A stretch of 37,055 nt of DNA from Anaerolineales bacterium (GCA_026996855.1 JALWJZ010000095.1:1-37055), one strand, 5' to 3'. Positions 18,713 to 37,055 are shown, counted from the stretch's first letter. The notes: generated by a model not told the origin, from the letters alone. Program-made: numbers and translations.

Positions 18713-19612
18713 ATGAGTGGCAAGACCACCCCTACCCAACGACGTGTGTTGGCAGCCATCTCGGTGCTGATGGGTTTGTATCTAATGCTCGTTGCGCCTT
18801 TCCAGGTGTTGGACAACCTGAATCCCTGTTTGCGCGCGTTGATCGAAGTCTGGCAGGTGGTGGAACCCGATGGCGTCTGGGATACACCCGTACCCATCTT
18901 GACCGTGACTTTCCATGTGTGGATGGCGCTTTTCGTGTTTGCAGGAGCGGTGTTGGTCGTCATCGCCAAAGACATTGTCGCGGACAAACCCTGGGCCCGG
19001 CCTTTGGCGTTGGCCCTACTGTCATTGCCGGCCATCGGGGGCTTGTCGTTTGTGATTCCCTGGATGGTGTTGGTCGTGCGTCAACCGGATGGTAGCAAGA
19101 ACCCCGCGGCCGGTATGGCGCCGGGGCTGCCCATCATGGTATTGGGTCTGATCGCATACTTCCTGATGCTTCTTCTGGAGAAAAGCGATGCCAAGACCAA
19201 ACTCGCCCAGGTGCTCCTGTTTGGCTGGCTGGGCATTACGGCCGGCATGGTATACATGAACGCTCAACATGGTGTGCGCTATTTCCTGCACAACCCCAGT
19301 GCACCCTACTTCGACCCCAAATATAGCCACCCGGAGCTCTTCCTGGGAGGGTATGTCTTATATGCTTCGACCGCGCTTTTCGTCGTCGCTATTGGCTTTT
19401 TGGCTGCCCGGCACTCCATGGGCTGGTATGTGGGCGTGACCGGTGCACTCATGACGGCGGTGGTCATGTTCCTGGTGTTCCTGGATAGACAGCAGGCCGG
19501 TGCTTCGGGAGCGGTCGAGTGGCTTCGTGGTGCGCTTCTGGCCGTAGTGCTGTTGGGTTTACTCCTGACCCCAGCTATTCAACGTCGTGTCCTGGGACGT
19601 TCTCTTCTTTAG
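18713..19612 (+). CDS. Multi-pass membrane protein of unknown function
   Basis: 299 residues with about eight hydrophobic spans (roughly 10-31, 63-86, 95-118, 128-147, 157-176, 203-226, 229-249 and 264-284). The longest soluble stretch lies between spans 1 and 2 (DNLNPCLRALIEVWQVVEPD). A second lies between spans 5 and 6 and is rich in His, Tyr and Pro (AQHGVRYFLHNPSAPYFDPK). No transporter or enzyme family was recognised. AGGAGG stands 8 bases before the chosen ATG; an upstream in-frame ATG at 18680 lacks a site. It is divergent from a Crp/Fnr regulator, which probably controls it. The 3' end overlaps the decayed transposase. Confidence 0.8.
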   Translation: MSGKTTPTQRRVLAAISVLMGLYLMLVAPFQVLDNLNPCLRALIEVWQVVEPDGVWDTPVPILTVTFHVWMALFVFAGAVLVVIAKDIVADKPWARPLALALLSLPAIGGLSFVIPWMVLVVRQPDGSKNPAAGMAPGLPIMVLGLIAYFLMLLLEKSDAKTKLAQVLLFGWLGITAGMVYMNAQHGVRYFLHNPSAPYFDPKYSHPELFLGGYVLYASTALFVVAIGFLAARHSMGWYVGVTGALMTAVVMFLVFLDRQQAGASGAVEWLRGALLAVVLLGLLLTPAIQRRVLGRSLL

Positions 19613-20383
19613 ATGACAGACCCTGCGCGGTGAGCAACTGAGCCGCCGGGACCTTACACCCCGCAAAGGGAAAGAGCGGAGACATGCCGCCGGTGAAGAG
19701 TTCGCGTTGCAGCCGCGCTTTGACCTCGCCCGAGATTTCTTTCGGATGCAGGCGTAGGCGTTGCAAAACCAAAGCCACATGCCGCACCAAGGTTTGATTC
19801 ACACAACACGGACGCGCCGCCGAACCGCAGAACGGTTTCGCGTCTCGGAACAAGGTCTCGATGGGCCAGCGGCGACGTTTCCTCAACACAAGGGTGGTTA
19901 GGTCCCTGTCCAAGTCATTGGTTGCCAGCACCTTCCCCTTCCCGTGACGATTCCTGGCCACGACCAGAGGGAGGGTGCCATACTTGGGCAGATACGGGCC
20001 CGCAGTTGCAGGCGGGCCCGTTCCTTCAATCGTACCCCGTGGCCCAAGGACGCGGCCTTTTGGCGCCGGTTACGGTCATGGTCGGTCGTGTTGGGGTGGA
20101 GCACGTCGACCCAGGTCAAGCCCAGCCGGTTGACTCGCTTGGTCAACCAGCCCGCGGTATTGTCAAGGACATGAATCAGCGGTCCCGCCTGGAGCACTTC
20201 CACGATTCTCTCCCCTAACACCTTGGTCTGCCTGGAGCAGCCAAAAAATTTGGGCGAATGCTTGGTGACCATGAACCCCATCCAAGGACATGCTTGAGCA
20301 TCGCGAGACGCCTGGACTGGGATAGGATGCGTGCTCTCTCCTGCCCAGGCTTCAAATTCAGGGGGAATGTTCAGGTTTAAACG
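19575..20383 (-). pseudogene. Decayed transposase (frameshifted)
   Basis: The minus strand encodes a broken transposase. The 5' part (20383 to about 20030) reads RLNLNIPPEFEAWAGESTHP, then MGFMVTKHSPKFFGCSRQTK and VLDNTAGWLTKRVNRLGLTW. The 3' part (about 20030 to 19575), in another frame, reads YLPKYGTLPLVVARNRHGKG, then LRKRRRWPIETLFRDAKPFC, the C-terminal RRWxIExxFRD pattern of IS4/IS701-like DDE transposases. A frameshift near 20000-20050 and a stop codon at the head show that it is inactive. The remaining length is short for the family. Its 5' end is duplicated at 25403-25590. Confidence 0.75.
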
Positions 20384-20468
20384 TTATTTTGTTGCCCTTC
20401 AATACCGAATTTGTCAACCAACGGTGGACTTGGCTTACTTGGGCTGAATCCTACAATGCCTAATAAAG
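20214..20468. repeat. Transposon-end/promoter cassette, copy 1
   Basis: About 255 bases are closely similar to 25403-25656. Both begin in the transposase 5' coding part (TAACACCTTGGTCTGC) and run through CAATACCGAATTTGTCAACC into a promoter. The last 59 bases also match copy 3 at 23876-23934 in the upstream block TTTGTCAACCAACGGTGGAC. The downstream half is diverged, but the promoter elements are kept. Confidence 0.85.
20430..20457 (+). promoter_or_regulatory. Promoter of the first exported-protein set (cassette copy 1)
   Basis: TTGGCT, a 16-base spacer and TACAAT. The same spacing and hexamer pattern occur in the other two cassette copies (23896 and 25618), each before an exported-protein gene. 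Confidence 0.65.
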
Positions 20469-20473
20469 GTAGT

Positions 20474-20490
20474 CCTCCCATGTAAGGAGG
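20474..20490 (+). promoter_or_regulatory. Hairpin covering the ribosome site, with a start-stop ATGTAA in the loop
   Basis: CCTCC (20474-20478) can pair with GGAGG (20486-20490), the Shine-Dalgarno of the gene at 20497. The loop contains ATGTAA, a start codon followed at once by a stop. The stem is only five base pairs, so control of translation is possible but unproven. Confidence 0.4.
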
Positions 20491-20496
20491 GAAGAA

Positions 20497-21327
20497 ATGA
20501 AAGTGAAAACGAAAATCCTCCTGTTCTTTTTCGCTCCCCTTATGGGTTTCCTATTCGGCTTTCTTAGCCAGGCACAGGTTCCCCCTGAAATTGAGAAACG
20601 TCTGGGGAGTCAGGACCCGGCGCTGGCTGCAGTACAAACGAGAAAAATACGTGAGCCGCGCGTTGAGCAGGCCTTTTTACGTATGTTGAACAGCCACCGT
20701 TTTTGGCATACGTTGTACGTCGCCACGCAATTGACCCTCATACCCGAGGGCAAAACGGCCACCACGTTCGTGGAAAAATTCTGGTTGCAACAGCCCTATT
20801 GGGCCCGCCACGAAATATATGTACCAGGCAAAGAACAGGCCCTTCATATAATGGTGATTACGCCTTCGTCTCGAATGTTTCACACCTCCGAAGGAATTAC
20901 GGAAAACGACGTTGCCAGAGGTCCCGACGATATCCAGCAGGAACTGGCTATGCTCCCAAAAACTCTTTACCAACTCCCGCCCCTGATATCGATAGACCAT
21001 CCTCTTCGCCGGGCGCTGCTTAGCCATACCGCGGATTACCTTTTTCCCGCACCTTTTGCCCAACGTACCGATACCCGGCACCAGTTTGTCTTCCTGGGGG
21101 AAGGGGCTTTCCTGAATCGTCCTGTGTGGAAAATTCAGATTCTCTTTGAGCCCGATTCCCCACAGTCTGCCCAATGGACATTGTGGGTGGATCAACAGAC
21201 GGGGATTGTTCTCAAAGCCGAAAGTGGACCCTATCCAGGAACGCCTACAGAATACTTCCAGGTATTGCAATTTCAACATAATCCGGTGCTTTCCAGGAAC
21301 ATTTTTGCCTGGGAGGGACGACCATGA
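20497..21327 (+). CDS. Exported LolA/RseB-like protein, set A
   Basis: 276 residues. The N-terminus is basic, then hydrophobic (KILLFFFAPLMGFLFGFLSQ), and ends in a likely signal peptidase site near AQA, so the protein is exported. The mature part is about 250 residues. Its second half has alternating strands such as RPVWKIQILFEPDS, WTLWVDQQTGIVLKAE and PTEYFQVLQF. This pattern is seen in the half-barrel LolA/RseB/MucB family, which binds lipids or lipoprotein signals outside the membrane. The resemblance is structural in style, not a strong motif match. GGAGGGA precedes the ATG. The stop overlaps the next start (ATGA). A second protein of this type is at 24029. Confidence 0.65.
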   Translation: MKVKTKILLFFFAPLMGFLFGFLSQAQVPPEIEKRLGSQDPALAAVQTRKIREPRVEQAFLRMLNSHRFWHTLYVATQLTLIPEGKTATTFVEKFWLQQPYWARHEIYVPGKEQALHIMVITPSSRMFHTSEGITENDVARGPDDIQQELAMLPKTLYQLPPLISIDHPLRRALLSHTADYLFPAPFAQRTDTRHQFVFLGEGAFLNRPVWKIQILFEPDSPQSAQWTLWVDQQTGIVLKAESGPYPGTPTEYFQVLQFQHNPVLSRNIFAWEGRP

Positions 21328-21782
21328 AGAAAATATTGGTTGTTTCGTTCTTGCTTTTTACGCTGGCTTATCCTGTAGGTGTCCTCGCGGGGAGCTATCT
21401 TTATCAAGGTGAATGGACGCTGCACCACCGCGGCGGCGCTTATGGAAACTATCCGGCATGGTACCGTGAACGTTGGCCCGGGGAATGTTATGGGAATTTT
21501 TGCCGGCGGGCCCGGTTATACTCTGTTTATGCCCAATCCTTATGGGCATGGGATCCCTTCCGATATGTGGGAAAGTGGGATCGGTGGTATGCCTATATCC
21601 CCGGAGGTGCCAATCCAGGAGGTGATGAAGGCGCCTTGGTGCGTTATTATGTCCATGAAGGAACTTCTCATTCTTGGTGGGTGGCTGTCAATCAGCGTGC
21701 TCGGGCTGGGCAATGGGTCTATTTGGGTTATTCCGATACAAACAATACTCCACAAGGTCTGAGTATCGATGAAAAATGCTAG
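21324..21782 (+). CDS. Small exported protein with golvesin-like domain, set A (in-frame stop)
   Basis: 152 residues to the first stop. A signal peptide (KKILVVSFLLFTLAYPVGVLA) is followed by an aromatic-rich mature part. The C-terminal half, WYAYIPGGANPGGDEGALVR, then YYVHEGTSHSWWVAVNQRA and GQWVYLGYSDT, resembles the golvesin C-terminal-like beta-domain found in secreted proteins (pattern Y-x-V-H...VNQ...W-V-x-LG). The start overlaps the upstream stop by 4 bases (ATGA). The frame is interrupted by TAG at 21780. It then continues for 23 coding-looking codons to TAA at 21849, one base before the next gene. The visible protein is probably truncated, or TAG is read through. Confidence 0.7.
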   Translation: MKKILVVSFLLFTLAYPVGVLAGSYLYQGEWTLHHRGGAYGNYPAWYRERWPGECYGNFCRRARLYSVYAQSLWAWDPFRYVGKWDRWYAYIPGGANPGGDEGALVRYYVHEGTSHSWWVAVNQRARAGQWVYLGYSDTNNTPQGLSIDEKC

Positions 21783-21851
21783 TACTACAACCATATTACC
21801 TGTGGCGCTTTTTTCGCGTACTGGGATCTCATGCGGGTGTATGATCGTTAA
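21783..21851 (+). other. Continuation of the golvesin-like gene beyond an amber codon
   Basis: In the same frame as 21324-21782, the 22 codons after TAG read YYNHITCGAFFAYWDLMRVY plus two more residues before TAA. The aromatic and Cys content matches the preceding protein. The TAA is followed by G and the ATG of the next gene, so the original stop was probably here. Confidence 0.55.
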
Positions 21852-21852
21852 G

Positions 21853-23046
21853 ATGTCCTGGAGCCTGCTCTTTTTGGCGCTGATTTTGATGGGGTGTGGT
21901 CGGGTATATACTCCGGCTACGTCCCCATTTGCGCCTGAAACGCCTTCGCCCCCAACGGTAAAGGCTACCCCCTTGATTTCGCTCTCCGAGGTCGAGGTCT
22001 CCTCGGAAAACGGAACTGGATGGTGGGTGGTGCAACAAGTGGCCGCCGAAGCCGGTTCTGGTCTGTGGTATTGGGTACCTGCAGGCAATTTGCCCGATGA
22101 GGCATCCCTCCTCCCTCTACCCGCTTGCCCTGATACGACGGCATCCGCTACTCCGCCACCCGATGCCCCACCGGGTTTTAGGAAAAACAAAAGGCCGGAA
22201 ATTCTGCAGGTCCTTTGGGTAGCACCGCATCGGTTCGTGTATCTATGCATCTCGCCCCACCACAACGGATGGTGCCCTCCAGAAGCCTCCTGTGCCTTCT
22301 TATGGGACCGCCAAAAAGGACTTCGTCATAGCGCGGCTTTTTATGCACGCAATTTGTTTTCCCGGGTATGGCTCGCGCGTTATGGGGAGGATACATGGAT
22401 CGCTTTTCCCTGTCTCAGCCAAGATGGCTCATGGGGCGTGTGTGAAAGTCGATTTGGAACTCCGGACGTGCGTTTTCTCTTTTCCCTGGAAAACGCTGAA
22501 ATCTTGGCCCGTCATCCGGAGCGTCCACTTTTCGCTTTGCGAGAACCTGTTTCAGGCTGTGATATGTACGGAAGCGTTCGAGAGGGATTTCGCTTGGTCT
22601 TTGTCAACGGCGAGACCCGGGAACGCCGGACGTGGACCGGCTTTGAAAAGGCACTGGGACGTTCACCTACGTGTGCGCCCAAGGCAACAGGAACCCTGCA
22701 GGGTTGGTTTCGGTGGGAATTTGTGGGTTGGAATCCCCGGAATCCAGACGAATTTGCGGTCCTGGTTTTTCTTTATCCCGAAAACACGCCCGCGGACCGT
22801 CCTTTGGATGATCTGCGTGCTCGCAAAGTGCTTTTGCTTGCCCAGCCCGAAGTGCGTTCCCAAATTCCCCTACCTGACGGTTTGCACTGCTCTCTATGGG
22901 CGCCGAAGGGGAACGGCTTCCTCTGCCGAGAGGAGAACCCGCCTTTTGCTTATGTGTGGCTGGATCGCCAAGGAAACTTGCGCCAACGATGGCCTATGCC
23001 CGAAGAGTTCCGGGTGGTTCAATGGGCGGGGAATGCCTCTCGATAG
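21853..23046 (+). CDS. Lipoprotein of unknown function, set A
   Basis: 397 residues. MSWSLLFLALILMGCGRVY is a short lipoprotein signal with lipobox LMGC (Cys 15), followed by a Thr/Pro/Ser linker. The mature part is rich in Trp, Cys and short strands (LARYGEDTWIAFPCLSQDG, FRWEFVGWNPRNPDEFAVLV and WAPKGNGFLCRE), as in beta-propeller or WD40-like surface proteins. No family was recognised. The start was chosen because it gives a complete lipobox and sits one base after the likely true stop of the preceding gene (TAAGATG). A Met at 21841 is the alternative. A second lipoprotein of similar size and style is at 28433. Confidence 0.75.
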   Translation: MSWSLLFLALILMGCGRVYTPATSPFAPETPSPPTVKATPLISLSEVEVSSENGTGWWVVQQVAAEAGSGLWYWVPAGNLPDEASLLPLPACPDTTASATPPPDAPPGFRKNKRPEILQVLWVAPHRFVYLCISPHHNGWCPPEASCAFLWDRQKGLRHSAAFYARNLFSRVWLARYGEDTWIAFPCLSQDGSWGVCESRFGTPDVRFLFSLENAEILARHPERPLFALREPVSGCDMYGSVREGFRLVFVNGETRERRTWTGFEKALGRSPTCAPKATGTLQGWFRWEFVGWNPRNPDEFAVLVFLYPENTPADRPLDDLRARKVLLLAQPEVRSQIPLPDGLHCSLWAPKGNGFLCREENPPFAYVWLDRQGNLRQRWPMPEEFRVVQWAGNASR

Positions 23047-23089
23047 GCCAATCAAGAGAAAGTGACCACTTTGCAAAACCCCACTAAAA

Positions 23090-23362
23090 TTGGAGGGAGG
23101 CCGGGGCTGGCAGGCCATATGTGCCAACCCTGGCTTGGCCGTCTTGATGCTGGGCGTTTACCTAAGCGTTAGCCTGCGAGCAGGCGAGCTTCTCGGGCTA
23201 TGGACGGTGCCGCCTCGTTGGCGGGTGTGCATTTTGATGGCCGGGATTGGCGGCTTCTGGGCATGGCGAGGTCTCGGAAGACGCTTCGATAAAATCTTTT
23301 ATCCCTTGCTGCTTTTGAATTTCGGTATTCAATGGATAGGCCACGGAGGTTTTCTGTGGTAG
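23090..23362 (+). CDS. Small membrane protein, first of a tandem pair
   Basis: At most 90 residues, with two to three hydrophobic spans. NPGLAVLMLGVY, LRAGE, PPR and IFYPLLLLNFG line up with the next gene (NPPLTFLFIALY, LRAGE, PPR, LFPLILLDMG), so the two are tandem paralogues. Compared with its partner, this copy lacks the first membrane helix. The only usable start is a TTG at 23090 without a ribosome site, so it may be a 5'-truncated remnant. It may otherwise be expressed by coupling from upstream. Function unknown. Confidence 0.55.
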   Translation: MEGGRGWQAICANPGLAVLMLGVYLSVSLRAGELLGLWTVPPRWRVCILMAGIGGFWAWRGLGRRFDKIFYPLLLLNFGIQWIGHGGFLW

Positions 23363-23688
23363 GGAAACTCCTTTTGGAGGCTGTTTTCCTCCTTGGACTT
23401 GCCTATGCATTGCACCTTGACGTGCAAAAGACCTTTGGGGGATGGAAAACGTTTTGGCGAAAGAATCCGCCATTGACTTTTCTATTCATTGCATTGTATA
23501 GCACTTTCCTCCTGCGGGCAGGGGAAGATTGGCTGGGTTGGCGTCCGCCCAGGGTGCTTGGGTGGGCGTGGATGGCCATGGGGGTGTTGGCTGGCATTCT
23601 GGCCTGGCCCAGGCCAGGGAATCGCTTGGCAAAAGTGCTTTTTCCTCTCATCCTGTTGGACATGGGCGCGGTGTGGGCCTTTGCGTAG
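23356..23688 (+). CDS. Small membrane protein, second of a tandem pair
   Basis: 110 residues with about four hydrophobic spans: VGKLLLEAVFLLGLAYAL, LTFLFIALYSTFLL, MAMGVLAGILAW and VLFPLILLDMGAVWAF. GGAGG lies 6 bases before a GTG start that overlaps the stop of the preceding paralogue. An ATG at 23332 in the same frame lacks a site. It shares NP-x-L, LRAGE, PPR and FPL-x-LL with the first copy. No known family was recognised. It is probably the last gene of the set A transcript. Confidence 0.65.
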   Translation: MVGKLLLEAVFLLGLAYALHLDVQKTFGGWKTFWRKNPPLTFLFIALYSTFLLRAGEDWLGWRPPRVLGWAWMAMGVLAGILAWPRPGNRLAKVLFPLILLDMGAVWAFA

Positions 23689-23875
23689 ATCCTCCTTTCC
23701 TTCCCCAAAAGGATTACCGCAGATTACTGTTTCTTCCATAGAGACGGACATGGCCTGCAGAAGTGGTGGCCATATGACTGCGGTGTAAGCATTTTCTACA
23801 TGCCCAATAACCAGCGCTGCATGGAACCCACCACGCGGCTCTTTTCGGCAATCCAAGCCTTCGCCTTGATTGGGG
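23689..23875. other. Spacer with an open but unsupported reading frame
   Basis: In the frame of the preceding gene the DNA stays open past its TAG up to 23922. It reads a coding-looking stretch (DYCFFHRDGHGLQKWWPYDC, then GVSIFYMPNNQRC), but there is no start codon or ribosome site. It may be a gene remnant joined to cassette copy 3. No family was recognised. Confidence 0.35.
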
Positions 23876-23934
23876 TTTGTCAACCAACGGTGGACTTGGC
23901 CCCCTCCTGGCCCGCCCTATAATGCGTTGTAGAA
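23876..23934. repeat. Promoter cassette, copy 3 (short)
   Basis: 59 bases, identical to 25598-25656 from TTTGTCAACC to GTTGTAGAA. Unlike the other two copies it has no transposase sequence attached. It stands before the second exported-protein set. Confidence 0.9.
23896..23923 (+). promoter_or_regulatory. Promoter of the second exported-protein set (cassette copy 3)
   Basis: TTGGCC, a 16-base spacer and TATAAT. It would give a leader of about 100 bases before the gene at 24029. Confidence 0.7.
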
Positions 23935-24028
23935 GGTTGAATTTTATAGGCCACCTGATGGGTATAAGGGAATTGAACCGAGCCTGTCCCAATCTCGTTT
24001 ATCTGCTCAAAACAGGGGAGACTGGAAA

Positions 24029-24895
24029 ATGTTGAGGAATCAAAGGAAGACGTTTGTGTGGTGGGCCGGCTTGGCGGCCCTGGTGGTATTGGTCCTGGGG
24101 TTGTGGGGCCTGCCCCATCAGGCCCGGAGCGAACCACTGTTGCCCACTTTTGTGCCCACGCTGGCTCCAGTGACGGTGATGCCCTTGCAACGACCGTACG
24201 AGCAGGTTGCCCCCGACCTGGCAGCATTGCAGGCCATTTTTGAGGAGAAATTGTACGACCGGGCGCAGCCCTTCCTGGAGAAAAGTAAAGGAAAGTGGGT
24301 ACATATCGCCATAGAGGTGAAACGAGCGAACATTTACAAAGGAAAATCCCTGCTTCCTCCCGAAAGCAGGGTAGATCGATGGATCCAGGTGAGCGAGGAT
24401 GGTAGGGTAGCACAAATGTTCACTATAGAATGGGATAAACATGAACGCATCGTGCAGATGACCTTGAGCCGGGGGCTGAAAGGAGAATGGAATTCGATCG
24501 CTGGCTATCTCGAATGGCCCTTTGATAAGTTTCCAGACTCCCTCGCGTATTGGATACAGTTAGACTCCAAACGTTTAGGACGCAAAGGGCCTTTCTTTTG
24601 GTCTCAGAACGAAGGGTTATTCATCGTGTCGCATCGGTACCGGAAGGAGCCTCCGATGATGCCCGCACAATCCACCTTGGCTTATCCGATTGCCGAAGTG
24701 GAGTATCGGTGGGAATACAGCCTGAAATCGGGGTTGCTGCAGCGCCATGAAATGCGCTTGATCCTGTCCAATGGCCATCTCATTACGGAACTCCAAGAAC
24801 GCTATCAATACCAGATTGCCGATGCTTTGCCCTCAAAGGTGCAACCTCTATTTGAACACGCAGAGCATCAGTTTCTGCAAGGGAACCGAAAATGA
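24029..24895 (+). CDS. Exported LolA/RseB-like protein, set B
   Basis: 288 residues. An N-terminal hydrophobic stretch (WWAGLAALVVLVLGLWGLP) acts as a signal peptide or anchor, followed by a Pro/Thr-rich neck. The mature part starts with strands such as KGKWVHIAIEVKRANIYKGK, VDRWIQVSEDGRVAQMFTIE and VEYRWEYSLKSGLLQRHEMR. These recall the beta-half-barrel of LolA/RseB-type proteins. GGGGAG lies before the ATG. It has the same position as the protein at 20497: first gene after a promoter cassette, followed by a small exported protein. Sequence identity between the two is low by eye, so common descent is an inference. Confidence 0.6.
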   Translation: MLRNQRKTFVWWAGLAALVVLVLGLWGLPHQARSEPLLPTFVPTLAPVTVMPLQRPYEQVAPDLAALQAIFEEKLYDRAQPFLEKSKGKWVHIAIEVKRANIYKGKSLLPPESRVDRWIQVSEDGRVAQMFTIEWDKHERIVQMTLSRGLKGEWNSIAGYLEWPFDKFPDSLAYWIQLDSKRLGRKGPFFWSQNEGLFIVSHRYRKEPPMMPAQSTLAYPIAEVEYRWEYSLKSGLLQRHEMRLILSNGHLITELQERYQYQIADALPSKVQPLFEHAEHQFLQGNRK

Positions 24896-24926
24896 GGACA
24901 TCTCGGCACTAAAGGAGGAGGGTGTT

Positions 24927-25394
24927 ATGGAGGGACAAAGAACAATCCCTCATTTTCGTCCGATCCTGCTCGCGTGGAGCCTTGGTGCATGGATATTGAT
25001 GGTAGGGGCCGTGCTCGCCGGTACGGATGTGGCCTGGAGTACCATTTATGGAGTGAGCATCCAAGGGGTGACTCTGGCCCGGGAATGGAACAATTATAGT
25101 TGGATCGCTCGGGTCTGGGAATCAGCCTCTTCGCCCATCGTGACCATCGGTTACCGATGGTGGTCCGTGGGCCAATATTGTCATGGATGGGGATGGTCCT
25201 TTTACAGAACGTTCCCTGGGTCGGTAGATCATTATGATGACCGGCATTACAACCATTTTGGACCCAAGCCGTGGGTAGGGTGTAACACCGCCCTTTCCGT
25301 AATGAGTCAAGCACGTCACGAGTTCGGTCACTGCAATCCTCTTGGGGAGTGTGACACCAAGTTTCTGCACACCATTGCGTGGGATGAGCATTGA
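24927..25394 (+). CDS. Small exported aromatic/Cys-rich protein, set B
   Basis: 155 residues. A signal peptide (FRPILLAWSLGAWILMVGAV) ends near VLAG. The mature part is rich in Trp, Tyr and His and has four Cys spread over QYCHGWGWSF, WVGCNTAL, GHCNPLGEC. It could form disulfides or bind metal. No family was recognised. AAAGGAGGAG precedes the chosen ATG, 31 bases after the gene at 24029. It occupies the same slot as the golvesin-like protein of set A, but I see no clear sequence similarity between them. The gene stops 9 bases before cassette copy 2. Confidence 0.65.
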   Translation: MEGQRTIPHFRPILLAWSLGAWILMVGAVLAGTDVAWSTIYGVSIQGVTLAREWNNYSWIARVWESASSPIVTIGYRWWSVGQYCHGWGWSFYRTFPGSVDHYDDRHYNHFGPKPWVGCNTALSVMSQARHEFGHCNPLGECDTKFLHTIAWDEH

Positions 25395-25402
25395 TTTTTT
25401 GT

Positions 25403-25656
25403 CTAACACCTTGGTCTGCTTGGAGCAGCCAAAAATTTTGGGCGAACGCTTGGTGACCATGAACCCCATCCAAGGAGATGCTCGAGCCTCGCGAGATGCC
25501 TGGACTGGGACAGGATGCGTGCTCTCTCCTGTCCAGGCTTCAAAACCAGGGGGAATATTTGAGTTTAAACGCCATTTCGCCACCTTTCAATACCGAATTT
25601 GTCAACCAACGGTGGACTTGGCCCCCTCCTGGCCCGCCCTATAATGCGTTGTAGAA
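25403..25656. repeat. Transposon-end/promoter cassette, copy 2
   Basis: The left 190 bases encode, on the minus strand, the 5' end of the transposase seen at 20214-20383 (KWRLNSNIPPGFEAW, then MGFMVTKRSPKIFGCSKQTK). It breaks off after about 55 codons. The right 59 bases are the promoter block shared with copies 1 and 3. The transposase fragment is cut at its 3' side by the end of the set B gene. Confidence 0.85.
25618..25645 (+). promoter_or_regulatory. Promoter of the short exported protein/regulator unit (cassette copy 2)
   Basis: TTGGCC, a 16-base spacer and TATAAT, 37 bases before the start codon of the gene at 25682. It may also drive the two-component genes that follow. Confidence 0.7.
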
Positions 25657-25681: not shown

Positions 25682-26038
25682 ATGCGTTATCCTAAACTGG
25701 GATGGGTGGTTGGGGCGGCTCTTTTCCTCTTGGTGACCGCCCTGGCGGTATGGCCGGTCATGGCCCAAGAAGGGCCTTCTCACATTGTGATTCCGGCCGA
25801 ACAGAACCTGGTCCTTCATTCGGCGGACGAGTTGGCCGATGTGCTCCGCAAACAAGGCATGGATGAGGCTTCTATCCAGCGCGTCCTCGAACTGGAACGG
25901 CGCATCGAACGCGCCCACGCGCAAGGCCTCTCCTATGAGGAACTCCGGCGCAATATGGAGCAATGGATTCAGGAACTCTTCCCGAAGAACCCCACCCCGG
26001 ATGCAGGTACCTCTTTTCAAGATACGCTTCGTCCTTAG
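25682..26038 (+). CDS. Short exported helical protein next to the two-component system
   Basis: 118 residues. The signal peptide (GWVVGAALFLLVTALAVWPV) ends at MAQ. The mature part of about 90 residues is charged and largely helical (VLRKQGMDEASIQRVLELER, RRIERAHAQGLSYEELRRNM), possibly a coiled coil or CpxP/Spy-like periplasmic sensor partner, and ends in a Pro-rich tail. GAGGAGGTGGG lies before the ATG. The two-component genes begin 63 bases downstream. A small exported helical protein before a sensor kinase suggests a regulatory ligand, which is inference. No family was identified. Confidence 0.7.
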   Translation: MRYPKLGWVVGAALFLLVTALAVWPVMAQEGPSHIVIPAEQNLVLHSADELADVLRKQGMDEASIQRVLELERRIERAHAQGLSYEELRRNMEQWIQELFPKNPTPDAGTSFQDTLRP

Positions 26039-26101: not shown

Positions 26102-26782
26102 ATGCGGGCTTTATTGGTGGAAGATAGCGCCCATTTCGCCCGGGCTCTACGGTTGGGACTGCGCAACCACGGTTTCGCCGTGGATATTGCGGCGAACCGA
26201 GAGGAGGCCATGTTCAAATTCGCAGTCCATGACTACGATGTCGTGATTCTGGATCTGCGCCTGCCCGACGGTCACGGTTTGGACCTGTGCCGTTGGATGC
26301 GGGAACGGGATGCCCACATTCCCATTTTGATCCTGACCGCGCTGGACCGCCCTGAAGATATTGTGACCGGCTTGAATGCCGGCGCCGATGACTATGTGGT
26401 CAAACCTGTGGACCTGAACGTGCTGGCGGCCCGGTTACAGGCCCTGTTGCGACGGGCAAGGCCGGTGCAGGGGCCTGTTCTCCAGTGGCGCGACCTGCGT
26501 TTGGACCCGGGCTCACGGCGCGCCTGGCTGCGTCATCGTCCTTTAGAACTCAGGCCTCGCGAGTTCGACATTTTGGAGTATCTTATGCGCCACGCCGGGC
26601 GCGTGGTTACCCCCGAAGAACTTATGGAGCACGTATGGGGCGAAGACATTGACGCCTTTTCCAATGTGGTGCGGGTTTACATCCACAACCTTCGCCGAAA
26701 GTTGGGTGATTCCCCGCAATCGCCGCAATACATCGTTACCGTGAAAGGTCGTGGTTACCTGTTCGGCCCCCAAGAGCAATGA
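26102..26782 (+). CDS. OmpR-family response regulator of the island
   Basis: 226 residues. The receiver has E7-D8, phosphoacceptor D51 in VVILDLRLPDGHG, T79 in LILTALD and K101 in YVVKPVD. The C-terminal winged helix contains LRPREFDILEYLMRHAGRVV and ends in VKGRGYLFG. AAAGGAAAA precedes the ATG. The stop overlaps the kinase start (ATGA), so the two are translationally coupled. The likely targets are the nearby exported-protein genes, because three of their transcription units share one promoter block. No direct evidence ties the regulator to that block. Confidence 0.93.
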   Translation: MRALLVEDSAHFARALRLGLRNHGFAVDIAANREEAMFKFAVHDYDVVILDLRLPDGHGLDLCRWMRERDAHIPILILTALDRPEDIVTGLNAGADDYVVKPVDLNVLAARLQALLRRARPVQGPVLQWRDLRLDPGSRRAWLRHRPLELRPREFDILEYLMRHAGRVVTPEELMEHVWGEDIDAFSNVVRVYIHNLRRKLGDSPQSPQYIVTVKGRGYLFGPQEQ

Positions 26783-27963
26783 AAGCACTTTTCCGGCGAA
26801 GCCTGCGCTTGCGTTTGAGCCTGTATACAGGGCTGATTCTGTTGGGCCTGGGAGGCGCGCTTTTCGTTTACTTGCTGCTTCTGCCTCACTGGTTGGTCAC
26901 CGGGTCGTTTTCTCAGGAACTTCGCCTTCATGGCCCTGCCTCGGCATCCACCCCGCCACACCCCCAGCCATCCGGTGCGGAACATTCCTCGCCTGCCCAT
27001 ACGTTTTTCGTTGTCACACAATCCGCCCTTCAATCTCGCACGACCTTTTGGATGTACGGCCTGGTGGGAACCCTCTTGCTTACGCTTTTCGCCGCGCTGC
27101 TCACTTATGTGGTCACCCAGCGTGCCTTCCGGCCCTTGTACCATCTCTACCAGCGCGTGGCCCACTTATCGCCAGACGCTTTGCCCGCCCAACTCCCCCT
27201 TTTCAGTTCCGACGAAGAGATTGCCACGCTTACCCAGGCCTACAATCTGCTGCTGGAAAAAGTGCACCGAACCCTGCAAGCCCATAACCAATTCGTGGCC
27301 GATGCGGCCCATGAACTGCGTTCTCCCCTGGCCGCATTGCGCGTCCAGAGCGCCACCCTCGCCCAATGGGAGCATTTGAATCCCCAGGAGCGCCGGCAAA
27401 TCTTGCAAGACATCCAAGACATGCTGGATCAACTGGAGCGCACCGTTTCTGCTTTACTCCTGCTTTTACACGAACCCGATGCCCGGTTTGAAGAAACCAC
27501 GGATTTGGCCCACCTGGCGGAACAAATTGGCAAGGAATTTCAGGAACGGGCCCGGCGTCTTGGCATTCGGCTGCACCTGGATGTAGAAGCCCCTGCCCTG
27601 GTGAAAGGGTACCGGCCGCTGTTACGCGTCGTCCTGCGTAATCTGATGGAGAACGCGTTGCTTTACAACGACCCTGGAGGCTCGGTTACGGTACAGGTCC
27701 GCGTACGTCCCGGATATGTGTTGCTCCAGGTTTGTGATACGGGATGGGGCATCGCCGAAGACGAACTGCCGCATATCTTCGAACGGTTCTACCGAGGACA
27801 AAAAGCCCAAACGAAGCCCGGCAGCGGCCTGGGCCTGGCTGTGGTGAAGCGCATCGTTGCCCTGCATCGAGGCGAGATGGAAGTCGAAAGTCAACCCGGC
27901 GAGGGATCCTGTTTCCGGGTGCGCCTCCCTCGGCATCAAAACGCTGATTTAACGGGGGCTTAA
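26779..27963 (+). CDS. Sensor histidine kinase of the island
   Basis: 394 residues. TM1 (about 15-37), an extracytoplasmic loop (about 40-90) rich in His, Pro and Ser, TM2 (about 91-112) and HAMP (about 113-167). HisKA has H178 in DAAHELRSPLAAL. HATPase has NLMENALLYNDPGG, DTGWGIAEDELPHIF, FERFYRG and GSGLGLAVVKRI. The layout equals QseC/CusS-type kinases. The sensor loop is too short for a folded domain, so it may sense through partners such as the small exported protein at 25682. Coupled to the response regulator by a 4-base overlap. Confidence 0.93.
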   Translation: MKALFRRSLRLRLSLYTGLILLGLGGALFVYLLLLPHWLVTGSFSQELRLHGPASASTPPHPQPSGAEHSSPAHTFFVVTQSALQSRTTFWMYGLVGTLLLTLFAALLTYVVTQRAFRPLYHLYQRVAHLSPDALPAQLPLFSSDEEIATLTQAYNLLLEKVHRTLQAHNQFVADAAHELRSPLAALRVQSATLAQWEHLNPQERRQILQDIQDMLDQLERTVSALLLLLHEPDARFEETTDLAHLAEQIGKEFQERARRLGIRLHLDVEAPALVKGYRPLLRVVLRNLMENALLYNDPGGSVTVQVRVRPGYVLLQVCDTGWGIAEDELPHIFERFYRGQKAQTKPGSGLGLAVVKRIVALHRGEMEVESQPGEGSCFRVRLPRHQNADLTGA

Positions 27964-28042: not shown

Positions 28043-28279
28043 ATGGACCTGAATTTATCCCGCCGTGAGCGGGAAGTATGGCAATTGCTCATCGCCGGAA
28101 AAAGCAACAAGGAGATTGCCCGCCATTTAGGGATTTCACCCAGTAGCGTCAAGACGTATTTGCATCGCCTGTATCGCAAATTGGGTGTGTCGAGTCGGGT
28201 GGAAGCCATTTGTCTGTATTTTAGGGTGTATTATCGTGTCCCCGTCTCAGGGGATGGGTTTGTAGAGGAGGTGGCCTAA
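28043..28279 (+). CDS. Stand-alone LuxR-type helix-turn-helix protein
   Basis: 78 residues. Almost the whole protein is a GerE/LuxR HTH: LSRREREVWQLLIAGKSNKE, IARHLGISPSSVKTYLHRLY and RKLGVSSRVEAI, with no receiver or ligand domain. Such single-domain regulators resemble GerE. The tail (RVYYRVPVSGDGFVEEVA) is unusual. GAGGGAGGG stands before the ATG. It lies 79 bases after the kinase gene and before a lipoprotein gene, so it may be part of the same regulatory circuit. Confidence 0.88.
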   Translation: MDLNLSRREREVWQLLIAGKSNKEIARHLGISPSSVKTYLHRLYRKLGVSSRVEAICLYFRVYYRVPVSGDGFVEEVA

Positions 28280-29824: not shown

Positions 29825-32812
29825 TTACCCCGCCAACTGCTTCCGCAGGGTCTCCGCCTCTTCCCGGAAGCGGGCCAGTTTGTCCCGTTCCTTCTGCACC
29901 ACGTGGGCCGGGGCCTTCTGGCTGAAGGGGCTGGCCAGGAGTTTCTCCAGCCGCGCAATCTGGGCTTCCACCTCGGCCAGGCGCTTTTGCAGCCGCGCCC
30001 GGGTTGCTTCATCCATGGGAATGCCCAGGTACGCGGTCCAGGACCCGGCCACCACCGCCGCGCCCGTGGGCTTTTCGTCGGTTCGTTCTACGATATGCAA
30101 GTGGGCTTCGTCCAGGGTGGCCAGGAAGGCCAGCGCGGGGGCCATTTCCCGAAGCGCAGGGGCATCCGCACCGGCCACCACCGTGGCTTGCAAGCGCTGT
30201 TTTTGGGGCAGGTCGTTTTGCGCCCGGTAGTTGCGGATGGCCCGCACCAGGCCCTGGAAGGTTTCCATGAAGGCCAGCACCCGGTCCGCGTCTTCGGGCA
30301 GGGGTTCGGCCTGGGGCCATCGCGCCACCATGAGCATTTCGGGCCAGCCGCCCTGGGGGGTGAAGTTGGGGTTGTCCGCGCCAAAGGCCACCACCACCGC
30401 GGCCTTGAGGTAGCCCCAGAGGGCCTCGGTCACGAAGGGGATGAAGGGATGCAACAGGCGCAGGCTGGTTTCCAGCACTTTCACCAGGGTCTGCACCGTG
30501 GTGTAGGCCCTTTCCCCGCCCTGGCGCACCTGGGTCTTGGCGATTTCCAGGTACCAGTCCGCGAAATCGTTCCAGAGGAACTCGTAGAGCACCTTGCCGG
30601 CCTCGCCGTACAGGTGCCGGTCGAAGAGCCGCTGCACCGCCTCCATCGTCTGGTTCAGGCGGATGAGGATCCAGCGGTCGGCGGTCGGCCGTCGGCCGTC
30701 GGCCGTTGGCCGTTGGCCGTCCGCTGTCCGCTGACGGCTGACGGCTGTCGGCTGTCGGCTATCGGCTATCTGCCCAATCATCCTCAACACCGCCCGCCCC
30801 ATGTTCCAGAGTTTGTTGATGAACTTCTGGTTGCCTTCCACCTTCTTCATGCTCATGTTCAGGTCGTTGCCGGGGGCCACGCCCACCAGCAGGGTGAAGC
30901 GCAGCGCGTCGGTGCCGTACTTCTGGATGACGTCCAGGGGGTCAATCACGTTCCCCAGGGTCTTGCTCATCTTGCGGCCGTACTCATCCCGGATGAGGCC
31001 GTGCAGGTACACCAGTTCGAAGGGGATTTCCCCCATGTGCTCCAGCCCAGCCATAATCATGCGGGCCACCCAGAAGAAGAGGATGTCGTAGCCCGTTTCC
31101 ATCACGGTGGTGGGGTAGAAATAGCGCAGGTCGGGCGTATCCTCGGGCCAGCCCAGGGTGGCGAAGGGCCAGAGCGCGGAGGAGAACCAGGTATCCAACA
31201 CGTCGGGGTCCTGCACCAGGTCGGTGCTGCCGCACACGGGGCAGCGTGCGGGCTTCTCCAGGCTCACGATGGGCCGGGCCTTCAAACCCACGGTGATGCG
31301 TGCCGCTTTGCGGAAAATTTCCTCGGCGGAAAGTCCCGCGGCCCGCAGTTCCGCGTAAGTGGTGGTGTCAAAGGTGCGCCCGTTGTGTTCCAGGGGCGGG
31401 ATGAAGGTCACGTGGATGTGCTCGGCCTGGGGCCGGCCGTCTTCGGCCTTGCACTCCGCGCAGTACCAGGCCGGGATGCGATGACCCCACCAGAGTTGGC
31501 GGGAGATGCACCAGTCGCGGATGTTCTTCATCCAGTTGCGGTACACCTTGGCGAAGCGTTCGGGCACGATGCGGATTTTGCCCTCTTCCATCACTCGCAG
31601 CGCGGGCTCGGCCAGGGGCTTGATTTTCACGAACCACTGCACCGAGGCCATAGGCTCGATGGGTTCGCCCCCGCGTTGGGCGATGGGGATGCGGTGCTTG
31701 TAGGGCTTCACGCCCAGGGTGAGGCCGGCCTTTTCCATGTCTTCCCAGAGGCGTTTGCGCGCTTCAAAGCGGTCCAGACCTTCATACGGTCCGGCGTGTT
31801 CGTTCATGCGGCCCCGTTCGTCCATCACCAGGATGATGGGCAGGCCGTGGTCCTTGCCGATTTCGAAGTCCACGGGGTCGTGGCCGGGGGTGATTTTGAG
31901 CGCGCCGGTGCCGAATTCCCGGTCCACGCGCGGGTCGGCAATCACGGGGATTTTCCGCCCCAGGATGGGCACCACCACCTCTTTGCCCACGTACTTCTGA
32001 TAGCGCTCGTCTTCGGGATGCACGGCCACCGCGGTATCGGCCAGAATGGTCTCGGGCCGGGTGGTGGCCACGGGGATGTAGTCTCCGGAGCCGTCGGCCA
32101 GCATGTATTTGAAGAAGTACAGTTTGCCGCCCACCTGGTAAAGGCTCTGGTAATGCTTCAGGGACATGCCTTCAGGCGCTTCGGTGGGAGGCCTGGTGCC
32201 GTCGATTTCCACGTACTCCACTTCCAGGTCGGAAACCGCGGTTTGCAAACCGGGGGACCAGTTGATGATGCGGTAGTCCCGGTAAATCAGGCCCTTTTCC
32301 CACAGGTGCACGAACGCGGTGAGCACCGCGCGGTAGTAGCCTGGGTCCAGGGTGAAGGCCAGGCGGGTCCAGTCGCAGGAAGCGCCCATGCGGCGGATTT
32401 GCTTGATGATGATGCCGCCGTACTTTTCCTTCCATTCCCAGACGCGCTTTTCAAAGGCCTCACGGCCCAGGTCGTAGCGGGTCTTGCCCTCTTTGGCCAG
32501 GGCCTTTTCCACCTGGAGTTGGGTGGCGATGCCCGCGTGGTCGGTGCCGGGCACCCAGAGGGTGGGTTCGCCCCGCATCCGGTGGTAGCGAATCATGAGG
32601 TCTTCCACGGACAGCATCATGGCGTGGCCCAGGTGGAGTTCGCCGGTCACGTTGGGCGGCGGCATGGCAATCACGAAGGGCTTCACCGAGGGGTCGAAGC
32701 CGGGCTTGTTGGGGTCGTTCCAGGGCTGGAAGTAGCCCTTCTTCTCCCATTGCTCGTAGATTTGGGGTTCCAGGGTGTGGAAGTCGAAGGTTTTGGGAAA
32801 GTCGTGGGGCAT
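29825..32812 (-). CDS. valS: Valine--tRNA ligase with in-frame repeat insertion
   Basis: 995 residues. Class I synthetase: PPPNVTGELHLGHAMM (HIGH motif, HLGH at 60-63), an editing (CP1) domain, K614-M-S-K-T (KMSKS), and a C-terminal helical anticodon domain ending in a short coiled coil (RARLQKRLAEVEAQIARLEK). It charges tRNA-Val and hydrolyses misacylated Thr-tRNA-Val. Between the catalytic part (VLRMIGQI) and the anticodon domain (DRWILIRLNQTMEAV) there are about 33 extra residues (681-713) of low complexity (QRTADGQRPTADGRRP). They are encoded by heptamer repeat DNA with no frame break. GAGGAGGTG precedes the ATG. The gene follows a four-helix-bundle gene, with a Val-type T-box leader upstream of both. 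Confidence 0.96.
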   Translation of the reverse strand: MPHDFPKTFDFHTLEPQIYEQWEKKGYFQPWNDPNKPGFDPSVKPFVIAMPPPNVTGELHLGHAMMLSVEDLMIRYHRMRGEPTLWVPGTDHAGIATQLQVEKALAKEGKTRYDLGREAFEKRVWEWKEKYGGIIIKQIRRMGASCDWTRLAFTLDPGYYRAVLTAFVHLWEKGLIYRDYRIINWSPGLQTAVSDLEVEYVEIDGTRPPTEAPEGMSLKHYQSLYQVGGKLYFFKYMLADGSGDYIPVATTRPETILADTAVAVHPEDERYQKYVGKEVVVPILGRKIPVIADPRVDREFGTGALKITPGHDPVDFEIGKDHGLPIILVMDERGRMNEHAGPYEGLDRFEARKRLWEDMEKAGLTLGVKPYKHRIPIAQRGGEPIEPMASVQWFVKIKPLAEPALRVMEEGKIRIVPERFAKVYRNWMKNIRDWCISRQLWWGHRIPAWYCAECKAEDGRPQAEHIHVTFIPPLEHNGRTFDTTTYAELRAAGLSAEEIFRKAARITVGLKARPIVSLEKPARCPVCGSTDLVQDPDVLDTWFSSALWPFATLGWPEDTPDLRYFYPTTVMETGYDILFFWVARMIMAGLEHMGEIPFELVYLHGLIRDEYGRKMSKTLGNVIDPLDVIQKYGTDALRFTLLVGVAPGNDLNMSMKKVEGNQKFINKLWNMGRAVLRMIGQIADSRQPTAVSRQRTADGQRPTADGRRPTADRWILIRLNQTMEAVQRLFDRHLYGEAGKVLYEFLWNDFADWYLEIAKTQVRQGGERAYTTVQTLVKVLETSLRLLHPFIPFVTEALWGYLKAAVVVAFGADNPNFTPQGGWPEMLMVARWPQAEPLPEDADRVLAFMETFQGLVRAIRNYRAQNDLPQKQRLQATVVAGADAPALREMAPALAFLATLDEAHLHIVERTDEKPTGAAVVAGSWTAYLGIPMDEATRARLQKRLAEVEAQIARLEKLLASPFSQKAPAHVVQKERDKLARFREEAETLRKQLAG
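30671..30772. repeat. Heptanucleotide array inside valS
   Basis: About 14 seven-base units (GGTCGGC, CGTCGGC, CGTTGGC, CGTCCGC, TGACGGC, TGTCGGC, TATCGGC) lie within the valS coding region. They are read as a Arg/Ala/Asp/Pro/Gln-rich linker. The total length keeps the frame. The units resemble the arrays at 32825 and 33276. Confidence 0.9.
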
Positions 32813-34176: not shown

Positions 34177-36429
34177 CTAACCCGAGGCCACCGGTTGGCG
34201 ATGCAGGGCAGCGTGGACCCGTTCGGGAAGCAAGGGGAAGGTGTGGAACCAGATGCCCGTAGCATTGCGAACCGCATGAATCACGCCCGGAGCCACGGGA
34301 AGGAAGGGCATTTCACCCATGCCCCGAGCGCCCCACGGCCCCAAGGGGTCCGGGTGCTCCACAATGATGCTGCGCACCCGCGGGGGCACGTCCAGGATGG
34401 TGGGGATGAGGTACGTGGAGAGTTTGTCGGTGAGCACGTATCCGTCCTTCATGATGAAGTTTTCCAGGAGCACCCAGCCCAGCGCCTGCACCACGCCACC
34501 CTCGATCTGGCCTTTCACCAGCCTGGGGTTGATGGCCCTGCCCACGTCGTTGGCGGAAATCACGTCCACCACTCGCACCTGGCCGGTCTCGGTGTCCACT
34601 TCCACCGCGAAAGCCTGAGCCACGTACCCGTAGGCGAAGTTGGGTTCGGATTTGCCCGTTTCCGGGTCGTAGGGGGTGGTGCGGGGCGGACGGTACACAT
34701 ACTCGCCCACCGCGGGGCGCTCCTCGTCCCGCCATTTCTCCAGCGCAATTTTGGCCGCGCCGCGAATCGCGTTCCCGGCCATGAAGGTGAGCCGGGAAGC
34801 CGAAGCGCTGCCCGAGTTCTCCGTCACCGCGGTATCCGAAAGCACCAGGTGCACCTTCTCCAAAGGCACGCCCACGGCCTCCGCGGTCATTTGCGCGAAC
34901 ACCGTGTGCGCGCCCTGGCCCACTTCCGCGCCCGCGTAGTACAGCACCACCCGGTCGATTTCTGCGCCGCCGTGCAGTTCGATGCGGGCCCAGGAGTTTT
35001 CCGGGTAACCGAAGGAAAAGCCCACGTTCTTGAAACCGCATGCGAACCCGACGCCCCGTTTGATGTGCGGTGCCGGGGGTGTTTCCCATCCGGGCCATTT
35101 GGCGTCGGCCTCGGGCGGGCGGTGCCAACCCTTTTCTTCGTCGTATTCCCATCCCGCTTCTCGGGCCGCCGTGGCAATCACCTCCCGGATGCTCACGCCT
35201 TTGGGAATGGGCGTGCCCACGGACATGATGGAGCCTTCCCGGAAGGCGTTGCGCATGCGGATTTCCACCGGGTCCATGCCCAGGGCCTCGGCCAGTTTGT
35301 TCACCTGACTTTCCGCCGCGAACAGGGCTTGCGGTCCGCCGAAGCCCCGGAACGCGCCCGCGGGGACGTTGTTGGTGTACACCGCGTACGCGTCCACCCA
35401 CACATTGGGGATTTCATACGGGCCGGTGCTGAGCAGGGTGGCATTCCCCAACACTTTGGTGGAGGTATAGGCATACGCGCCGCCGTCCGCGACGAGTTCC
35501 ACCTTGGCCGCGGTGATTTTGCCATCCCGGGTAGCCGCCCATTTGGTGCGAATCACGAAAGCGTGCCGCTTGTGATGGCCGATGATGGACTCTTCCCGGC
35601 TCCATACGATTTTGACGGGCCGGTAGATGCCCCGCTGGGAAAGTCGCCATACGGCCAGGGCCAGCACGATTTGGATGGACATGTCTTCCCGGCCGCCAAA
35701 CGCGCCGCCGATGGCCGGGTAGATGACCCGGATTTTTTCCTCGGGCAGTTGCAGCGCGTGGGCGATTTGCTCCCGGTCCTCGTGGGTCCACTGGCCGGCC
35801 ACCACGATGGTGATGCGGCCTTCTTCGTCCACGTAGCCGATGCCGGCTTCGGGTTGCAGGTAGGCATGTTCCTGCATGGGGGTTCGGTATTCGGTTTCCA
35901 CCACCACGTCGGCTTCGGCAAAGGCCCTGTCCACGTCCCCCTTGCGAATGCGGTAGCGGCAGAAGATGTTGGAGCCTTTGTCGGGATGCAAGAGGGGCGC
36001 GTCGGGTTGCATGGCCTCCAGCGGGTCGGTGACCACGGGCAGGTCCTCGTAATCCACCTGGATGAGTTCCAGGGCCCGGGCCGCGATTTCCTCGCTCTCG
36101 GCCACCACCAGGGCCACCTGGTCGCCCACGAAGCGCACCCGGTCCGCGTAGGGCTTGTTGGAGCCGGGGCCGCACAGCACGGGTTGGTCCGGCATGATGA
36201 GGCCATACTCGTTGTTGGGCACGTCCTTGGCGGTGAACACCGCGACCACGCCAGGCAGCGCCTCGGCCCGAGAGGTGTCGATGCGGCGGATGCGAGCATG
36301 GGGCCGATGCGCAAAGAGGATTTTCATATACAACTGGTCGGGGTGGTCGAAATCGCCAGGGTATTTGGTTTCGCCGGTGACTTTGCCCACCGCGTCAACC
36401 CGGGGAATGGAACGTCCGATGATGGACAT
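34177..36429 (-). CDS. Xanthine dehydrogenase-family molybdopterin-binding subunit
   Basis: 750 residues. The large Mo subunit of the xanthine oxidase family hydroxylates heterocycles or aldehydes, passing electrons to FeS and FAD subunits. N-terminal a/b-hammerhead: [20 protein letters not shown] and [15 protein letters not shown]. The Moco-binding region has [29 protein letters not shown] and [24 protein letters not shown] follows, and GARGMGE near the C-terminus holds the catalytic Glu. AGGAGG precedes the chosen ATG; the frame is open further upstream into the neighbouring gene. The FeS and FAD subunits are not adjacent, since a terminator follows and a gamma-glutamyltransferase precedes it. 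The substrate is unknown. Confidence 0.92.
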
Positions 36430-36475
36430 GGGCTGCCTCCTTGTGAAAGGCGCTTTCTTCCATTGTAATCCAAGT

Positions 36476-37055
36476 TCATGGCTCCTGGGGAAAGACCACC
36501 ACGCCTGCACCCCCGCGACGGGAATCGCCCGCGGCTTCCCAGGCGCGGCCCTGGCGGCAGGCCACCGCGTGGGCGCCGCCGAAAAACAGGCTTTTGCTGG
36601 GCCAGGGCTTCACCCGATAACCCCAATAGGCCAGCACGTCCACCGTCGGTTGGGGAATGCCGAATTCCAGTTGATATTCGTTGTCCGCGTCCAGGTGGGC
36701 GCGCGGGGCTTCCACCGCCTGTTTCAGGGGGAGGTGGAAATCCAGGTAGGCGCTGAGCACCTGCATAATGGCGGTGCGAATGCGCGCACTACCCCCGCTA
36801 CCCACCACCAACGCGCTCCCGTCCTGGTGCAGGGCCAGGGTGGGGGTCATCATGGTGCCCAGGCGGGTGCGGGGCGGCAGGCGGTGGTACCCCTCCGGGT
36901 TCAGGTCCCACTCGCCCAGCATGTTGTTGAGTTGAACGCCCGTACCCGGCACCACGAAACCCGCGTCTTCCCCTGCGGTCATGGTCATGCTGAGCATCAG
37001 GCCCGAAGCGTCCAAAGCGCTGATGTGGGTGGTGTTGGGGTGGGTGGGGATTTCC
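36476..37055 (-). CDS. Gamma-glutamyltransferase, C-terminal part (partial)
   Basis: About 190 residues from the window edge. The segment [17 protein letters not shown] contains the autoprocessing Thr, which becomes the N-terminal nucleophile of the small subunit. [15 protein letters not shown] and [10 protein letters not shown] with [20 protein letters not shown] are typical of the Ntn-hydrolase family. [15 protein letters not shown] and [20 protein letters not shown] form the end of the domain, and DSRRGG is characteristic. The enzyme cleaves gamma-glutamyl amides. The gene starts beyond the window; the large subunit and any signal peptide cannot be seen. It is followed by the molybdenum hydroxylase, 46 bases downstream. 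Confidence 0.92.

Follow-up and report, generated by a model that had tools for sequence, protein, structure and literature searches.

The window analyzed here, a 37,055-nucleotide (nt) stretch of DNA from an uncultured Chloroflexota, an Anaerolineales bacterium, is part of the 2.56-Mb assembly G000. It contains three copies of a short conserved block, a putative operator-promoter, each of which stands ahead of genes for exported proteins; copy 3 also precedes a two-component sensor system, whose response regulator and histidine kinase genes overlap and lie in one operon (Table 1). The 20-mer TTTGTCAACCAACGGTGGAC was found without mismatch at 20410-20429, 23876-23895, and 25598-25617, always on the plus strand (chance expectation, 0.00), and no fourth copy was present in the window or the whole assembly with up to 3 mismatches allowed. 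Copies 2 and 3 were identical over 59 bases, and all three copies were followed by TTGGCY-N16-TAYAAT. The next start codon lay 39, 105, and 36 bases past the -10 hexamer of copies 1, 2, and 3, respectively, and the protein encoded there began with a signal-like sequence as judged by eye. The initial annotation, which had reported the repeated segment, the hexamers, the 59-base identity, and a signal peptide gene after each copy, was borne out on all of these points.

Orthologues of the operon behind copy 3 were found in three related genomes (G004, G006, and G015), and in each they comprised the exported protein, the response regulator (64 to 72% identical), the kinase, and a GerE-type helix-turn-helix (HTH) protein. 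Variants of the block were located directly upstream of these operons (TGTAAACCAACGGATGACTTG in G004, TGTAAACCTTTGGACGACTTG in G006, and TGTCAACCAAGGTGGACTTG in G015), with no transposase of the kind seen in the window beside them. In a fourth relative, G010, the element was followed by only the initial codons of the gene for this exported protein before the contig came to an end. The shared element reads TGTMAACC-N(2-3)-GGNNGAC-TTG, followed by a -10-like hexamer 16 to 17 base pairs (bp) past TTGNNN; in G015, a 1-base deletion in the middle of the dyad reduces the spacer to 2 bases, compared with 3 elsewhere. These sites were revealed only through the orthologues of the operon. A search of 60 relatives with the exact 24-mer, allowing up to 3 mismatches, returned nothing; the sites in the relatives have more mismatches than this or contain a deletion. 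Regulator orthologues of at least 64% identity were detected in no genomes other than G000, G004, G006, and G015, and in each of these the element lies ahead of that operon; four regulator paralogues of 52 to 57% identity had no such dyad upstream. A scan of GTDB contigs carrying the exported-protein family returned the same three relatives only. Since the element lies ahead of the same sensor operon in four other species of the family, it is a putative regulator binding site and not a transposon end. The suggestion in the initial annotation that the block is an operator-promoter of the local two-component system is supported by this arrangement.

The exact motif TGTMAACCNNNGGNNGACTTG had 7 matches in 301 genomes of the order, all within one family (three in the window and one each in G004, G006, G009, and G010), compared with 1 match for the reversed control. 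G009 carries two sites 2.1 kb apart on the minus strand of L045 (G009:C115), around 7060 and 9169. One precedes an exported-protein gene and a small exported gene, in the same layout as behind copy 2, and the other precedes a gene for an exported DUF2690 protein. The first gene after copy 2 shared 21 to 22% identity with the G009 operator-preceded gene and with one G004 gene. Two further dyads were found in G006 and G010, each before a lipoprotein gene. Genes for exported proteins were found behind all 11 accepted sites. Matches with 2- or 4-base spacers in G001, G008, G006:C24, and G009:C108 were judged to be chance or coding, and in this screen the reversed-control matches were about equally frequent in several genomes. 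A near-match in G010:C200 was discarded, as the surrounding DNA looks coding.

The promoter portion of the element was evaluated at eight sites, copies 2 and 3 being treated as one. At every site (8/8), a -10-like hexamer was present 16 to 17 bp after TTGNNN, and 37 of 48 positions matched TATAAT; 20,000 shuffles gave 16.8 matches on average and never more than 27. The spacer sequences between the -35 and -10 regions were not conserved. Retention of the dyad and of the -10 position while the sequence between them varies is as expected for an operator-promoter. If transcription is assumed to start 7 bases past the -10 hexamer, the dyad is centered at about -43 in the window and about -44 in the relatives, the position of a class II activator. 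By column permutation, a 7-3-7 dyad (P = 0.028) was better supported than a direct repeat (P = 0.60) as the predicted architecture of the site. For a direct repeat, which in OmpR/PhoB-type operators is a tandem one of about 10 to 11 bp, the highest-scoring offset was 11 bp, at a level that did not exceed chance.

The interpretation that we favor with considerable confidence is that the block would constitute the operator and core promoter of a small two-component regulon, bound by a regulator encoded in the operon itself. In the proposed mechanism, a dimer of an operon-encoded DNA-binding protein (the OmpR-type regulator or the GerE-type HTH protein) would bind the 17-bp dyad GTMNNCC-N3-GGNNGAC, which abuts a weak -35 element (TTGNNN) and is centered about 43 bases before the predicted start, and the bound protein would recruit RNA polymerase to a -10 element lying 16 to 17 bp past the -35 element. 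Through copy 3 the system would control itself, and through copies 1 and 2 it would place the two neighboring exported-protein operons under the same signal. One sensor system thus very probably switches on its own operon and these two operons together. We infer binding, activation instead of repression, and co-regulation from the sequence; for the exported-protein genes, the support for co-regulation consists of motif and position. The same element lies ahead of the regulator operon and of the putative target operons and was kept with the regulator operon in G004, G006, G010, and G015.

Several observations weigh against this interpretation. The P value for the dyad is modest and derives from seven related sequences. 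In G009, a small, duplicated HTH frame runs with its 3' end into both sites, so constraint there could be partly coding, and the sites before the lipoprotein genes in G006 and G010 have a longer stretch to the -10 hexamer. A close regulator was not found in two element-bearing genomes, G009, which is 62% complete, and G010, in which the contig breaks inside the operon. Finally, the counterpart of the copy-1 operon in G004 is preceded by another promoter, which lacks the element; a copy-1-type gene is therefore not an obligatory member of the regulon.

The operon offers two candidate binders, and it is a real possibility, if one that we would not quite favor, that the GerE-type HTH protein rather than the OmpR-type regulator occupies the dyad, with the kinase pathway acting through the HTH protein or with the HTH protein acting alone. 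NarL, a GerE-type protein, binds 7-2-7 inverted repeats abutting the -35 element, centered at -44.5 at ogt (PMC7419079), and the 7-3-7 dyad described here (7-2-7 in G015) resembles these sites in abutting the -35 element at about -43 to -44. In each of the four orthologous operons observed, the HTH gene also follows the kinase, and in G009 it immediately precedes each of the two sites and overlaps them with its final codons. However, dyad binding and autoregulation are also known for the OmpR-type regulators AgrR, CopR, and PcoR; all three bind dyads, and AgrR acts from a class II position with positive autoregulation (PMC7380067). The response regulator, moreover, is conserved to the same extent, and it is the usual partner for the kinase.

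Compared with known systems, the regulon is new and the system is of an already known kind. The arrangement resembles that of the NarL-activated Escherichia coli promoters ogt and yeaR, at which a GerE-type HTH protein binds as a dimer to two inverted 7-base half-sites that abut the -35 element and are centered near -44 (PMC7419079), although here the position is measured from a predicted start. In contrast to NarL, the half-site here is GTMNNCC and not the NarL heptamer, the spacing is 3 (2 in G015), the small HTH protein has no receiver domain, and the operon's complete response regulator belongs to the OmpR type. The likeness to the AgrR, CopR, and PcoR operators lies in the binding of a dyad by OmpR-family regulators, with class II placement and positive autoregulation for AgrR (PMC7380067); unlike the present element, the AgrR box is a 6-4-6 dyad (ATKACANNNNTGTMAT), and no metal-resistance genes were seen linked to the system here.

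The small exported helical protein behind copy 3 adjoins the regulator-kinase pair. This is also the layout of the CpxP-CpxR-CpxA and ZraP-ZraS-ZraR envelope stress systems, in which a small exported helical protein is encoded beside such a pair. Unlike CpxP, Spy, and ZraP, however, the exported protein had no Pfam match, and its low-confidence structure model (predicted local distance difference test, 67.5) had no PDB fold match to them or to any other entry at E ≤ 0.001; the regulator scored far under the CpxR cut-off. No paper was retrieved in a literature search on Anaerolineae operators. The element offers a testable operator, and through it a way to define the regulon, for a sensor system of an uncultured Chloroflexota family in which that search had revealed no regulon of this kind; the exported LolA/RseB-fold and small secreted proteins of the family could be located via this putative switch.

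Remnants of a transposase adjoin two of the copies. The initial annotation had placed transposase 5' ends beside copies 1 and 2; in fact they lie beside copies 1 and 3, where 20215-20434 and 25403-25622 were 90% identical across 220 nt. The match of these remnants to the IS701 family was weak (NCBIfam E value, 3.9e-5, well under the curated cut-off). A transposase end at copy 2 was rejected, as the DNA upstream bears no likeness to the remnants and the open reading frames (ORFs) there had no transposase match. On the transposase side and through the operator, copies 1 and 3 matched at 14 to 20 of 20 bases, then at 6 to 9 of 20 directly after TTGGC. The boundary is an abrupt junction, so that the description of copy 1 in the initial annotation stands for the retained hexamers and fails for gradual drift of the spacer. 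The homology of copies 2 and 3 had sharp limits at both ends. Copy 3 looks like a mosaic, with a transposase side of the copy-1 type and a promoter side of the copy-2 type, the two halves meeting within 25 bases common to all three copies. Recombination between operators or copying aided by an insertion sequence would give this mosaic equally well, and it provides a small example of how an operator and promoter may be copied ahead of new operons.

These remnants bear on two readings of the origin of the block. Insertion sequences can carry outward promoters, and promoter-like sequence does lie here at the edge of transposase remnants. The initial annotation considered that such a promoter was spread and then kept; a variant is that, spread by transposition, it drives its neighbors by accident. 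The 90% identical remnants at the 5' side of which copies 1 and 3 lie, and the end of copy-1/copy-3 homology at the -35 element, as for a mobile end that supplies a -35, are what this origin would predict. We nevertheless consider this origin very unlikely. The block sits outside the transposase reading frame; the remnants account neither for copy 2 nor for the sites in the five relatives, which lack such a transposase, and the block was not found widely beside intact transposases. A promoter inside the element and recurring with it was not observed: the transposase C-terminus matched only two others in 31 genomes (one short fragment and one distant match), and it is the two-component operon that the block tracks. 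Copies 2 and 3, furthermore, share the -10 hexamer and additional bases downstream of the position at which the homology of copies 1 and 3 ends. A milder history, compatible with the two-component regulon, is that an insertion sequence adjacent to a native operator, or recombination at its copies, moved the operator and -35 element between operons and that the regulon grew in this way. The mosaic of copy 3, joined in the bases common to all copies, and the G004 copy-1-type operon without the element fit this history, which we regard as quite possible without assuming it; ectopic recombination or gene conversion between existing operators would yield the same pattern, no target-site duplication or intact insertion element was identified, the element beside copy 3 is truncated, and no candidate inverted repeat marking transposon ends reached 11 of 15 matches. 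It is doubtful, although conceivable, that the system goes further, with a receiver-less GerE-type HTH protein as the output of an OmpR-type system and the operator-promoter of about 59 bp as a movable cassette, copied by recombination or insertion sequences before new operons for exported envelope proteins, so that the regulon would grow and be reshuffled between species.

A coding origin was also weighed, in which the block is merely the 3' end of a small HTH gene that underwent duplication (LSTKGGL in G009). At both G009 sites, LSTKGGLD is encoded close to the terminus of a GerE-type HTH frame, and the two within-motif differences between the sites are synonymous, and the block in the window can be read as LSTNGGLG. 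However, the sites in the window, G004, G006, and G015 are not preceded by an HTH frame, the HTH gene there lying behind the kinase; the same frame gives CKPTDDL or CKPLDDL in G004, G006, and G010; and the G015 deletion falls in the middle of the motif. Bases were kept and residues were not; the motif is thus not accounted for by coding constraint alone, and this origin is scarcely credible. The two-component regulon, with its operator-promoter ahead of the genes listed in Table 1, remains the interpretation that we favor.

Table 1. Features of the window around the three copies of the block (aa, amino acids)
Feature	Coordinates	Strand	Basis or remark
Broken transposase remnant (IS701-like), ending beside copy 1	19600..20409	-	NCBIfam IS701, E 3.9e-5, below curated cut-off
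Operator-promoter copy 1 (putative)	20410..20457	+	Dyad GTCAACC-AAC-GGTGGAC 20413-20429; -35-like TTGGCT 20430-20435; spacer 16; -10 TACAAT 20452-20457
Exported protein, 276 aa, predicted LolA/RseB fold, first gene after copy 1	20497..21327	+	Predicted template modeling score 0.73; Foldseek LolA 3.2e-7, RseB 3.4e-7
Small Trp-rich exported protein, 152 aa, second gene after copy 1	21324..21782	+	50% identical to counterpart in G004 operon
Probable lipoprotein, third gene after copy 1	21769..23046	+	
Operator-promoter copy 2 (putative)	23876..23934	+	59-nt block identical to copy 3; dyad 23879-23895; TTGGCC 23896-23901; TATAAT 23918-23923
Exported protein, 288 aa, first gene after copy 2	24029..24895	+	Weak likeness, 21-22% identity (see text)
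Small exported Trp-rich protein, 155 aa, second gene after copy 2	24927..25394	+	
Shorter remnant of the same transposase end, beside copy 3	25403..25597	-	Sequence comparison with copy-1 remnant
Operator-promoter copy 3 (putative), ahead of two-component operon	25598..25656	+	Dyad 25601-25617; TTGGCC 25618-25623; TATAAT 25640-25645
Small exported helical protein, 118 aa, first gene after copy 3	25682..26038	+	Kept ahead of regulator in relatives
OmpR/PhoB-type response regulator, candidate operator binder	26102..26782	+	Pfam Response_reg/Trans_reg_C
Sensor histidine kinase	26779..27963	+	Pfam HisKA/HATPase_c
Single-domain GerE/LuxR-type HTH protein, 78 aa, second candidate binder	28043..28279	+	tblastn; Pfam GerE 6.5e-22

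Further observations were made in the window and on a related contig. The region 23090-23700 has a second copy in the same genome (G000:C77:10552-11166, 82% identical) and contains small membrane-protein ORFs to which no family was assigned. At 29825-32812 and 34177-36510, long reading frames occur on both strands; the plus-strand frames had no match, and the minus-strand frames resemble valyl-tRNA synthetase and a molybdopterin-binding dehydrogenase subunit (Pfam). Comparison of 25682-26038 with L023 (4873-5508) and L024 (546-1214) revealed a Trp/Cys-rich C-terminal domain of about 90 residues in the copy-3-type exported protein of G004 and G015 that is missing in the window and in G006. On L026 (G004:C100), a repeat of about 120 bp with TTGACA...TAAAATG was found upstream of 6872 (minus strand) and of the gene ending at 2990 (minus strand), ahead of a gene related to the copy-1 gene and of a further gene for an exported protein, and similar sequence seems to be repeated elsewhere on the contig; it is a different promoter-bearing repeat ahead of the same kind of genes.

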